Positions 3,265-29,400 of a stretch of DNA of 33,023 bases are shown piece by piece; position 1 is the stretch's first letter; each line of letters starts with the position of its first letter. Made by a program: the position numbers and the translations under genes. Location of the stretch: the IMG/VR virus record IMGVR_UViG_3300025138_000181, positions 1 to 33,023 of that record. One strand, given 5' to 3'. The notes under the pieces were generated by a model that saw only the letters and a list, made by a program, of their open reading frames with translations, ran no database searches and was not told where the DNA came from. Origin of the DNA: a virus.

Positions 3265-3593
3265 AAAAACTTAAATTGCCTTCCAAAGTAACTATTGGAG
3301 CTTTTGAGGTACAATTAATTACAATACCCCATGACATTAGTTATGAGGTTTCAGAAGCACAGGGGGCCTTCGTTGGAAAGCCCCCTTACAAAATATATTT
3401 AGATGATGATATTATCCAAGGTGGAGGTAAAGACGCAATCAACGTAGTTATCCATGAAATGTTGCATGTTGGATATTACCAATATCTTCTCAAAGATAAA
3501 GAAGAAGAAACTGTTGTTAATTCTTATGGGAATTTTATTACAGAATTACTTACTCGTTCCGAATTAAAAGCATGGATAATTGACAATATGTAG
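3261..3593 (+). CDS. Putative small zinc metalloprotease-like protein (HExxH)
   Basis: A protein of 110 residues. The start is GTG at 3261, overlapping the previous stop. The motif HEMLHVGYY (His at about residue 65) is a zinc-binding HExxH helix, preceded by a beta-rich segment (YKIYLDDDII) as in ImmA/IrrE- and SprT-like minimal gluzincins. A possible third ligand is Glu in NFITELLTR, about 25 residues downstream. ImmA-type proteins cleave repressors and SprT-like ones cleave DNA-protein crosslinks. Here the gene is in the late segment and far from the repressor, so a role in immunity is not obvious. The motif assignment is firm, the activity is not. Confidence 0.7.
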   Translation: MKKLKLPSKVTIGAFEVQLITIPHDISYEVSEAQGAFVGKPPYKIYLDDDIIQGGGKDAINVVIHEMLHVGYYQYLLKDKEEETVVNSYGNFITELLTRSELKAWIIDNM

Positions 3594-3600
3594 AGGACCT

Positions 3601-3951
3601 ATGAACCAATGGAACCCCCTTCGGTTTGATAAAGAGTTTATCTCATCAGAATTAACAAGAACAAGAAAAGCATATGGGGAGTCTAAAGCTGCCTACGATA
3701 GCTTAGAACGTCAGAAAAAAAGAATTGAAGCTAAATTATACCTAGAGTTTAGACAGGCTGAAAAATGTACTGTTGAAGACGCAAAAATGAAAGCACGTAC
3801 TCATATAGAGTATGCAGAGATAGATACCCTTATAGATCAAGCAGAAATGCAGACAGAAAGAGCATATGCTGATTATGAAGGTTTACGTTTAAAGTGTCAG
3901 TTATTGATACAAGAGAACAGTACAATGAAACAAGAAATGAAATTAGGGTAG
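3601..3951 (+). CDS. Helical coiled-coil protein, unknown
   Basis: A protein of 116 residues. ATG at 3601 is preferred over an upstream TTG (3580) because AGAGGA at 3592-3597 is correctly spaced. It is almost wholly helical and charged, with heptad-like runs through residues 18-110 and a 'VEDAKMKARTHIEYAEID' segment also seen in small phage hypothetical proteins. It is the last gene before the terminator at 4042-4076. I can assign no function. Confidence 0.65.
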   Translation: MNQWNPLRFDKEFISSELTRTRKAYGESKAAYDSLERQKKRIEAKLYLEFRQAEKCTVEDAKMKARTHIEYAEIDTLIDQAEMQTERAYADYEGLRLKCQLLIQENSTMKQEMKLG

Positions 3952-3972
3952 TGGTATACTTAATGGTATACT
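3952..3972 (+). repeat. Pair of TGGTATACT repeats, left arm of attP
   Basis: Two identical 9-mers TGGTATACT at 3952-3960 and 3964-3972, start-to-start spacing 12. The same 9-mer occurs twice with the same spacing and orientation on the other side of the tRNA-derived core (4194, 4206). This is the layout of arm-type integrase binding sites. The call is by pattern only. Confidence 0.55.
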
Positions 3973-3988
3973 TAATACTTTATTAAGT

Positions 3989-4007
3989 TTGATAAAACTT
4001 GATAAAA
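3989..4007 (+). repeat. Two TTGATAAAA direct repeats near attP
   Basis: TTGATAAAA at 3989-3997 and 3999-4007, 10 bases apart, which places them on the same face of the helix. They lie between the left arm repeats and the terminator. Excisionase or IHF-type bending sites are often found at such positions. The assignment is tentative. Confidence 0.3.
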
Positions 4008-4041
4008 TATAGAAACCATTACAAATCATTACATATAAGAA

Positions 4042-4076
4042 ACCCCAGAAACTCAACACTTCTGGGGTCTTTTTTT
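4042..4076 (+). terminator. Rho-independent terminator of the late/lysis operon
   Basis: A perfect 9-bp stem ACCCCAGAA (4042-4050) / TTCTGGGGT (4060-4068) with a 9-base loop, followed by C and seven T. It ends the rightward genes that stop at 3951 and protects the attachment site and the convergent integrase gene. Confidence 0.92.
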
Positions 4077-4101
4077 ATTTGTAGAAATAGTGTAAACATA
4101 A

Positions 4102-4146
4102 TTTGGGACCAGGGGGTCGAAGGTTCGAATCCTTTCTCCCCGACCA
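4102..4146 (+). other. attP: attP core: 3' half of tRNA-Pro(UGG)
   Basis: The 45 bases read as the 3' part of a tRNA: anticodon loop TTTGGGA (anticodon TGG, proline), 3' anticodon stem CCAG, variable region, T arm GAAGG-TTCGAAT-CCTTT (one G:U pair), acceptor strand CTCCCCG, discriminator A and the encoded CCA. The 5' half of the tRNA is absent, so this is not a functional tRNA gene. It lies 16 bases beyond the integrase stop. Phages that integrate in tRNA genes carry such a fragment so that the host tRNA is rebuilt on insertion. The predicted attB is therefore the 3' end of the host tRNA-Pro(UGG) gene. Confidence 0.88.
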
Positions 4147-4162
4147 CTAATTCTGCCATTTT

Positions 4163-5293
4163 TTAAACTTGGTCAGTACCTTCTTTATTATTTTGGTATA
4201 CTATTTGGTATACTAACTTTCCAATTTTTTCTAAACTATCAGATCGTGTTTTAAAATCTGATTGATCGTATATTCTGCTAGTATTAATATCGCTATGTCC
4301 ATATGTTTTCATTACATGTTCAGAGTTACCAATTAAATTAGCAGTAGTGTGTCTAGTATCATGTTCTCTATACATTTTAATAAATCCTGCATCTTTTTGA
4401 GCTGTTTTATAAGCTCTTCTAATGCTTTTAATAGGTTTACCATTATATAAAAAAACATTACCTGGTTTATCTAAATTTAAACATTGTATTCTAGCTTTAT
4501 GTTCTTCATCACTTTCACTAGGAAACAATTTTTTACCTTTTAATAAATTTTCCATTTCATGTGTAAGTGGTAAAATGTATTCTTGATTACCTTTTTGTAT
4601 AAAAGTAATAGTCATTCTATCCCAATTAATCATTTGTGTAGTCAATTCCATTGAATTAAATTTTCTTAAACCAGAAACCAATCTCCAAAATATTACATTT
4701 TTTGCATGTGGTTTAGCTGCTTGATACATAGATACAATTTCATTTTTAGACATAGAACGATCTATTTTTTTTTCTTTTTTAAACATAAAAGTTTTCCAAA
4801 TAGGTTCGTTTCCTAATAAATATTTTTGTGATAATTTTGCATCATTGTAAGCCTGTCTTAAAAAAGCAATTTCAATATTAATTGTTTTTGGTTTTACTCC
4901 TTCTTTTCTTCTTTTATTAATGAATTTTTTTATAATACCAGGAAGATTTACTTCATGTATAAAAGTTTCTTGACCTATTTCGTCAATCCATCTTTGCACA
5001 TTTCGTAAAAAATCATTCTTAGTTGATTTTGGATTTTGCGTATTTTCCCAATTAGGTTCTACTGTTTCTTGGTACTCACTAAATAATTCTAAACAACTTA
5101 ATTTTTGTTTTATATTAGTAGGTGTTTTAAGTTGACGTTTTAAATCAACTATCCACTCTTGCCTAATTTCTCTTGCTTCCTTATATTTAGTAGTTCCTGA
5201 AGATTTTTTGTAGAGTTTACCTTTAATCCTTGTGTGTAAGTACCAATAGGGCGACCCCTCACGTTCTCGTATTCCTTCTCTTCTTGTTGCCAT
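4163..5293 (-). CDS. int: Tyrosine-family site-specific integrase
   Basis: A protein of 376 residues. The N-terminus (GSPYWYLHTRIKGK) is the arm-binding-type domain, residues about 65-160 are a SAM-like core-binding domain, and the catalytic domain holds R210 (SGLRKFNSMEL), K234 (QKGNQ), H311-x-x-R314 (HDTRH), H333 (GHSD) and the nucleophile Y342 (RIYDQ). It performs integration at the adjacent tRNA-Pro core and excision with a directionality factor. The start is ATG at 5293. The first 145 bases overlap the 3' end of the excisionase-like gene. Two TGGTATACT repeats lie within its own 3' coding end and encode the VYQIVYQ stretch. Confidence 0.96.
   Translation of the reverse strand: MATRREGIREREGSPYWYLHTRIKGKLYKKSSGTTKYKEAREIRQEWIVDLKRQLKTPTNIKQKLSCLELFSEYQETVEPNWENTQNPKSTKNDFLRNVQRWIDEIGQETFIHEVNLPGIIKKFINKRRKEGVKPKTINIEIAFLRQAYNDAKLSQKYLLGNEPIWKTFMFKKEKKIDRSMSKNEIVSMYQAAKPHAKNVIFWRLVSGLRKFNSMELTTQMINWDRMTITFIQKGNQEYILPLTHEMENLLKGKKLFPSESDEEHKARIQCLNLDKPGNVFLYNGKPIKSIRRAYKTAQKDAGFIKMYREHDTRHTTANLIGNSEHVMKTYGHSDINTSRIYDQSDFKTRSDSLEKIGKLVYQIVYQNNKEGTDQV
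4194..4214 (+). repeat. Pair of TGGTATACT repeats inside the int 3' end, right arm of attP
   Basis: TGGTATACT at 4194-4202 and 4206-4214, with 12-base spacing and the same orientation as the pair at 3952/3964. They flank the tRNA-derived core (48 bases from its right end). Here they are also coding sequence for the integrase C-terminus after the catalytic tyrosine. Proposed integrase arm sites. Confidence 0.5.
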
Positions 5294-5457
5294 GTTGCTC
5301 CTTCTTTTAAATCTTCGATATGGTTTGAATTAAACCTATAATCTCTTCCATATCTTACGCACTTAATAATACCCTCATTTACTCTCTTATACAAGGTTGG
5401 GCGTGAAATATTTAATTCTTGGCATACTTGAGTTGCTGTCATTAATGCTTTATTCAT
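5149..5457 (-). CDS. Excisionase/AlpA-like DNA-binding protein (HTH_17 type)
   Basis: A protein of 102 residues. Residues 5-52 (TATQVCQELNISRPTLYKRVNEG...VRYGRDYRF...) form a MerR-type winged helix as in AlpA/Xis directionality factors: helix-turn-helix followed by a wing with the R-Y-G-R-D-Y-R-F pattern. The remaining 50 residues are charged, unrecognised, and encoded over the first 145 bases of int in another frame. ATG at 5457 has AAGGAA upstream and overlaps the previous stop by 8 bases. Position next to int supports a recombination directionality factor. A transcriptional regulator of int is the alternative. Confidence 0.8.
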   Translation of the reverse strand: MNKALMTATQVCQELNISRPTLYKRVNEGIIKCVRYGRDYRFNSNHIEDLKEGATWQQEEKEYENVRGRPIGTYTQGLKVNSTKNLQELLNIRKQEKLGKSG

Positions 5458-26492: not shown

Positions 26493-29400
26493 TGGCTGAA
26501 TTTACTTTAGCTCCTCCTAGGAAAAGTGAGAATTCTAATATTACATTAGCTGCTCCAAGACCTGTAATGCCACCAACAAATTTCATGGACGACATGATGA
26601 AGGAAGAAGGTTTTGAAGTAGCCAATCAATCAATTAATATAGCTCCTCCTAGAAAACCTTTGTATGAAAATGTTTTTGATACAATTAAAGCCTTAACTGT
26701 AGAGCCTGTAAAAGCAGGATATGAAAGATTTACTGAAGCATTTGAAGGAGACATAGGAGTTCCAAACGCAGCTTTTGAATCTGGTTCAGAAGCAGAAAAA
26801 GAATTTTTTGGTTTTAATACAGATAAATCAATGACACCTACAAATATTGCTAAAACTTTTAATAAAGAATTAATGGCAACAATTTATGATGTAGGAGATT
26901 TTGCTATAATGCGAGTTCCATTTGCTGCTTTTTCAGCAACAGTTGGTACAGGTGCAGAAGCTATTGATAATGCAATAGGAGAAATACCTGGTGCAAGAGA
27001 AGCTGTAGGCAATGTTTTTGGTAAAGCTGTAGGCGAAGACGATATTAAAGAAGGCATAGAAGGTTTTTTTCATCACTACATGATTAATAAAATGTCAGGT
27101 GGTGGTGGCATGAATGTTATTAAAGCTATGCCAAAAGATATAGCCAAACAAAAAGCAAATGAATTTGTTAAAGATTTTGAAAAGAACATAGATAAAAATG
27201 CAAAAGAAATAGCAGAGTCTATTGTTCCTTTAGAAATCGATGCTTCTATAAGAAAACCTGCAATAGAAAAAATAGAAACAATTATTAAAAAAGAATGGGA
27301 AACTAAAAAAGAACCATACATTGAAATGCAAGAAAAAAATCTTGCAGAAGGTAAACCAAAATTTGAAGTTAGAGACGATATTGTAGAATTTAAAATTGGA
27401 GATACAATTTCTTTAGATGCTAAAGGAACTAAAGCGACAATAACTGCTGTAATGGCTAAATCAGAAGCAAAAACTAAAGATGGTTTAACAGTATTTAATG
27501 TTAAAACAGAAAATGGAAAAGTAGGTACTATTACTTTAGAAGCTGTTAAAAGATATAATCGTCAAGAAACTGTAGATTCTATGATGGGTGCAGGACCTAA
27601 ACATAGAAATATTGCAAAAATAGAAGAAAGAATGGAAGCTACTCCTGATGCTCCAAAAGATTTAATTAGACGAGATGTTATTCTACAACAGTTTTTAAAA
27701 GATTTAGATTTACCAATAGAAATTGGTGGAGTTAAAGGAAAAAATACTCTTGGTTATCATCGTAACTTTCTTGGTATAGGAAAACCTGGTGGTGGTGGAG
27801 CTATACGTTTAAAAAATAGAAATCAATTAGAAGTAGCTGCACACGAAGTAGCTCATTATCTTGATAGTCGTATTCCTGAAATTAAAAAGAAATATTCAGA
27901 AAAAGATATGGCTAATGAGATCATACAAGTATCGTATGATATTACAAAACTTCACGAAGGTTTTGCAGAGTTTATTCGTTTTTATATGACGGACCCTGTG
28001 TATGCAAAAGAATCAGCTCCTAAATTTTTTGAATGGTTTGATACGCAAGTTAGAACTAACAAGCTCATTGATAGCCAAAATAAAATGAAAGACATTGGAC
28101 CTGCTGTTTTAAAAGCACAAACTAATTTTTCTAATTGGTATAAACAAAGTGCTTTAGATAGAGCAAGATCAAAAATAGGTGCAGAAGTTGCTATTAATGA
28201 AGGTGTAGGAACAACAGCTCAACAACTTCGAGTAGAATTAATAGATGTTCTTGAAGGCCTTAGACGTTATGAAGATGGTATAGATACACAACCTGTAATC
28301 TATATGAACGCAAGAAATGCTAAAGGCATGAGTGAAGCATTACGTCAAAGTATTAAACAAGGTGCTTTAAGAATTGTTGAAAGAAACGGAGAACGTGTTT
28401 TTGAAATAGACACAAATGGTATTAAGTTTCAAAAAATTATAGATGCCGTTGGTGGACGAGATGCTCCTTTTTGGGATTATGCAGCAGGAAGAAGAGCAAA
28501 ATATTTATTTGAAAATTTTAAAGTTAAAACAGGTTTTACAGCAGCAGAAATACAAGCTCTTGTTGGATTAGAAAAAAAATATCCACAATACAAAAAATTA
28601 TTTAAAGAATATCAAGAGTGGTGGAATACCATTGTTGAAATAGGCATTAAAAGTGAATTGTTTACAAGAGAGCAAGTTAATAAATGGAGAAATGTAGATT
28701 ACGTTCCTTTTAACAGAGTTAATAAATCATCAAAAGGTCCTAAACAAGCATCAGATGTTTTTACTATAAAAATGATTAGAGGTAGTGAAAGAAACATAGG
28801 ACACCCTTTAGATAACATTATTAAAAATGCTCGTACTATTCTTCAAGAATCAATAAGCAATCAATTAAAACTCGATGTAATTAAAAAAGCAGAACAAACA
28901 AAAGATAGTGGAAGATTTATAGAAGCTATTAAAGAGAAAAAAAGAAAACAAGAAGTAAGTGTAAGTACAAAAGAAATACGAGATACATTTAAAGAAAATG
29001 TTTTAGATGTGTCTAAGGGATTGTTACCTAAAGATATAGATTTAATGATCGATATTGCCTTTGATTTAATGGGCGATTTTACTAAAGCTATAGTTCATGG
29101 TTTAAAACCAAAAGAACCAAACACATTGGCTGTATTAAAAAAAGGCAAGATAGAATATTACCGAGTTGCAGACCCTTTATTATTTAGAGCATTAGAAGCA
29201 TTAAATACAAAAAAATCTACATTTGATACTGTAGTTGGTTATTTATCTATTCCCACTAGAATAGGAAGAAGTTTTATAACTTTAGCTGTAGATTTTATTC
29301 AAGCTAACTTTGTTCGAGATACTTTAATGTCAGGCATGTTATCTAAAAATGGGTACATACCATTTGTTGATGCAGCAAAAGGTTTAAAATCACAAATATT

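Follow-up and report, generated by a model that had tools for sequence, protein, structure and literature searches.

A very probable lambda-type attP with arm-type repeats inside the integrase gene that change in concert among related phages

The window analyzed here is the whole 33,023-nucleotide stretch of the IMG/VR virus contig IMGVR_UViG_3300025138_000181, which derives from a marine phage with SU10-like head genes that is presumably a temperate podovirus. It carries an integrase gene, an excisionase-like gene, one half of a tRNA and several short repeats, as follows:

3952-3960, + strand: putative arm-type site, P arm, copy 1 (TGGTATACT; changes in concert in relatives)
3964-3972, + strand: putative arm-type site, P arm, copy 2 (TGGTATACT; changes in concert in relatives)
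3989-4007, + strand: second 10-bp-spaced repeat (TTGATAAAACTTGATAAAA), candidate accessory-protein site
4016-4033, + strand: 10-bp-spaced repeat (CCATTACAAATCATTACA), candidate accessory-protein (Xis) site
4040-4070, - strand: terminator-like hairpin in the P arm, conserved in relatives
4102-4146, + strand: putative attP core, the tRNA-Pro 3' half, anticodon through CCA (matches tRNA-Pro genes over 45 nt; identical in the relative L006)
4163-5293, - strand: int, a tyrosine integrase of 376 aa with a predicted N-terminal arm-binding domain
4194-4202, + strand: putative arm-type site, P' arm, within int, part of the second VYQ (- strand; changes in concert in relatives)
4206-4214, + strand: putative arm-type site, P' arm, within int, part of the first VYQ (- strand; changes in concert in relatives)
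5149-5457, - strand: excisionase-like gene (HTH_17 and PHROG excisionase matches), overlapping the int start

The Pfam integrase domain of Int (PF00589, scoring above its cutoff) spans residues 180-347, and R210, H311, R314, H333, and Y342 are conserved in its relatives. Residues 8-56 are predicted to form a three-stranded sheet and a helix (fold model; mean pLDDT 72.5, pTM 0.43, moderate confidence), and the best fold match of the predicted structure is lambda Int.

The 9-mer TGGTATACT has exactly four perfect copies in the window, all on the + strand, which form two pairs, each with a 12-bp spacing, on either side of the tRNA-Pro 3' half. It is the only 9-mer of the 33-kb window with two such pairs, and the arrangement was seen for no 9-mer in 20,000 Markov shuffles of 3900-4260. 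The upstream gene (ORF 3580-3951) ends with its stop codon immediately before the left pair. The right pair encodes VYQIVYQ, i.e., Int residues 361-367, beyond the Pfam domain and the presumed catalytic Tyr342. The analysis bore out the original prediction as to the positions, common orientation, and spacing of the repeats, the 45-bp tRNA-Pro half between the pairs, and the placement of the right pair in int coding sequence past the presumed catalytic tyrosine. The int stop codon (4163-4165) falls between the right pair and the core, so the core lies outside int. Between the core and the P pair, the two 10-bp-spaced repeats are kept in varied forms in relatives, and the terminator-like hairpin would serve both flanking genes. 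Single TGGTATACT pairs also occur in nine other viral contigs; no integrase homolog is found there, and we treated these as chance.

The core is 93% identical to annotated tRNA-Pro genes over 45 nt, and we infer that the phage integrates at tRNA-Pro. The 33-kb window holds no complete tRNA gene, and an Rfam search returned nothing near the gathering score. A match to ‘Phage DP SC_2_H4_2017’ proved to be a tRNA-Pro match only. Searching genome contigs for prophages of this family recovered only distant integrases (23-40% identity) and no host chromosome with attB, attL, or attR.

Searches with Int, Xis, and the conserved attP DNA gathered 16 viral contigs sharing this tRNA-Pro core, among which the int-internal pair takes eight different motifs. 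The P-arm copies match the int pair in 15 of the 16, namely those that keep the P arm of the family, and when the int motifs of the eight variants were compared with the P arms, the true pairing was the best of 40,320 permutations (score 137 vs 131 for the next). The geometry is nearly constant. In all 16 contigs the P' pair precedes the scanned core by 72-76 bp. On the far side of the core, the 15 contigs that have the P arm of the family show a P pair beginning roughly 127-129 bp beyond it, with a within-pair spacing of 12 bp, and they likewise conserve the terminator hairpin and the neighboring gene's end. Near-identical phages (L002-L005) retain all four copies. In L006, whose Int is 90% identical, TGATAGACT stands at all four places; the same two bases have been substituted in every copy, at the third positions of the Val and Tyr codons, such that both changes are synonymous in int and the tail still reads VYQIVYQ. 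Between the window and L006 there are substitutions at 8 of the 36 arm positions and at none of the 45 of the tRNA core, with 13.9% in the other noncoding DNA and 7.1% in the int flank. More distant relatives (Int 40-63% identical) have, on the int strand, GTACATCAA (VHQ), GTGGGACAA (VGQ), GTATTGCAA (VLQ), GTATCGGAA (VSE), GTATCTACA (VST), and GTATCACTA (VSL). The match is not always exact: P-arm copies of L043, L044, L041, L042, and L046 are one or two bases off the int copy, and the second P-arm copy shows one- or two-base differences in several contigs.

The original prediction had made conservation of the repeats its test. Relatives carry other repeats, the very result that was to refute it, yet the copies change together in each lineage, which supports the attP and arm-site claim. 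Its suggestion that sharing of sites limits the evolution of the C-terminus holds in part: across the variants (VYQ, VHQ, VGQ, VLQ, VSE, VST, and VSL) only the first Val, encoded by the GT of the motif, is constant, and the tail peptide otherwise varies with the motif.

Two contigs depart from the common organization. In L030 (3618-5216) the int pair is present, but across the tRNA-Pro core the 3' end of the family's int meets the end of a different phage, with a foreign P arm that lacks the motif, a 416-aa tyrosine-recombinase-like gene of its own, and 10-bp repeats (GGTTTCATTT); the contig may be chimeric, or this may be where tandem prophages join. In L036 (1789-1932) int reads through the tRNA core, and integration would alter the Int C-terminus, as reported for Mx8 (PMC6070905).

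Which protein reads the motif can be approached through pairs of phages in which Int and Xis have diverged to different extents. The HTH region of Xis is identical at 53 of 56 positions between the window and L043, and likewise between L036 and L042, whereas the Int N-domains are only 29% and 37% identical, respectively; the motifs differ in both pairs. By these comparisons, the motif tracks Int and not the near-identical excisionase. This bears on the notion that the repeats are sites of the excisionase or another accessory protein, which draws on the binding of excisionases to short direct repeats within attP arms and on the adjacent HTH_17 excisionase-like gene. However, an Xis that is nearly the same in phages with different motifs speaks against it, as do the occurrence of TGGTATACT on both sides of the core, in the manner of arm sites, and the presence of separate 10-bp-spaced repeats in the P arm that could serve Xis; we consider this reading very improbable. 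Even less credible, to the point of being nearly negligible, is the view that what is repeated in int is the peptide (VxQIVxQ, as a feature of the protein), the DNA repeat being secondary. A spacing of 12 bp does equal four codons, keeping the repeat in frame, and the Int tail is predicted, at low confidence, to be helical; but the same DNA stands in the noncoding arm across the core and changes along with the int copies, synonymous positions included, and in distant integrases repeat periods of 11 bp run out of frame.

The arm sites might also regulate int, e.g., through Int binding its own gene, and the original prediction had likewise coupled Int binding to int expression. A precedent exists in KplE1, where Int arm sites of attL overlap the intS gene region, as they do int here; when att overlaps the promoter of an integrase gene, the integrase acts as its own repressor (PMC2951348). 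In KplE1, however, the sites lie over the int promoter, whereas in this phage the int copies sit in the 3' end of the gene, some 1.1 kb away from its start, and promoter-like matches are no more numerous than the mean of the shuffled sequences. The proposed coupling thus finds no support, and an additional regulatory role is unlikely, though less so than either of the foregoing alternatives.

Against these, we favor with high confidence a lambda-type attP whose arm sites P1/P2 and P'1/P'2 would be read by the N-terminal domain of Int. The elements of such a site are in place, namely a tyrosine recombinase catalytic domain, arm-type repeats on both sides of the core, and an excisionase gene beside int, with the N-terminal arm-binding domain recognized by structure prediction only. 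Read directly from the sequences are the arrangement of the sites, their joint change among relatives, and a motif that tracks Int rather than Xis; Int would probably bind the repeats, and the repeat bases would set its specificity. The layout and the relatives support the original prediction of an attP in which presumed integrase arm sites form two pairs and int contains one of these. As to the residues involved, the Int N-domains of the window and L006 differ at positions 3, 4, 9, 10, 12, 29, 41, and 61; the change at residue 9 is also found in L004 and L005 and that at residue 61 in L005, both of which keep the window motif. Residues 10, 12, and 29 lie on or adjoin predicted strands of the fold model and are candidate determinants of specificity.

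Comparable organizations are known in part. In lambda, as here, a core has arm-type sites on both sides, Int has three domains, and int is convergent on attP; lambda differs in having 2 + 3 sites of mixed orientation with the P' sites almost wholly outside int (P'3, at 27806-27815, overlaps the int stop by 4 nt), whereas this phage has 2 + 2 direct sites with the P' pair fully in frame in int. Similar in layout, though distant in integrase sequence, are phages with P22-type integrases, which have P' repeats in the int 3' end and a P pair past a tRNA-like core, with a motif that varies in concert between lineages; at their 11-bp spacing, however, the copies fall into different reading frames and give no peptide repeat. 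These phages, SfI, sal4, ev243, HK639, mEp043, and APSE-1, carry a P' pair in int that matches or nearly matches the P pair, with the motifs GTCCCA, GACACA, or GGCACA (HK639 and mEp043 read by eye). Two-plus-two direct repeats are known from P2-like phages (PMC3931495). The attP of cluster K1 mycobacteriophages also has two pairs of arm sites, but with the core 5' of int, no sites in the int 3' end, and the pairs mutually inverted; among closely related phages of this cluster, a different arm-site consensus goes with a difference at Int N-terminal residues 17 and 19 (PMC3203893). Arm sites and the Int N-terminus also covary in Oenococcus prophages (PMC8074189). In Mx8, attP DNA overlaps int coding sequence as well, but attP lies within int and integration gives int a new 3' end (PMC6070905); here int stops ahead of the core, L036 being the exception. 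The literature covered, which excluded that on P22 attP, yielded no paper on in-frame int arm sites evolving in concert, a weak absence.

Among distant bacterial integrases, 3/18 non-redundant long ones have exact tandem repeats with a period of 10-13 bp in the 3' end of the gene, compared with 0.09 expected and 0/175 internal windows (Fisher p=7e-4); two of the three have 11-bp periods and are hence out of frame. A redundant survey had given 12/33, a figure inflated by related loci. Exact 10-mers common to int and the downstream DNA are a weak criterion (6/52 control windows had one), so the comparison was restricted to long or tandem matches. Neither an exact tandem nor a shared 10-mer was seen in Pseudomonas phage D3. 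In Sphingopyxis phage VSN-002, the 18-nt TCCCGGAATAGTCCCGGA in the int tail is repeated past the core. Pairs of this kind, though less exact, were read by eye in the Synechococcus phages Yong-M3-232 and Yong-M4-211. The VSN-002 integrase (L200 1477-2595; MZ127829), whose locus has two-plus-two repeats beside a tRNA-like core, is annotated as a ‘telomere resolvase’ and aligns with phage integrases. In Burkholderia phages Milagro and Mana and Achromobacter phage CF418P1, pairs of repeats follow immediately on the int stop. With P' pairs in or against int in several other phages, the layout is a recurrent feature of lambda-type attP and not peculiar to this phage. Separately, four integrases by tRNA-Leu or tRNA-Phe genes in bacterial genomes (L077, L078, L089, and L091) have GTTGACCA pairs 12 bp apart at their int 3' ends (VDQNVDQ and the like), which are probably coding P' arm sites.

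On this lambda-type reading, we propose that strand exchange would take place at the tRNA-Pro 3' half. Because the P' pair sits in frame within the 3' end of int, it would after integration stay with int at one prophage end, P1/P2 passing to the opposite one. When the arm-binding specificity of Int shifts, all four sites would shift along, and the copies inside int would carry the tail peptide with them as the motif changes. As the four grips change together in related phages, the Int tail would be partly shaped by the needs of a DNA site.

The overall design is a known one, a lambda-type attP ordinary in kind; it is the in-frame concerted evolution that is of interest, a natural experiment that is unusually clear here. 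What reads as a repeated peptide can be a disguised DNA site, and short tandem repeats at int 3' ends offer a suggested route to arm sites and attP in uncharacterized phages. Eight natural motifs on a near-constant attP, each with its own integrase, make up a dataset on DNA reading by the Int N-terminal domain. More speculatively, and with less than even probability, phages sharing one tRNA site might diversify their arm-site ‘password’ and thereby avoid recombining each other's prophages, with specificity, arm sites, and Int tail evolving as one linked unit because the P' pair is written inside int. If so, L030, where the family's int end meets the integrase region of another phage across the core, would be an instance of such a shared site.
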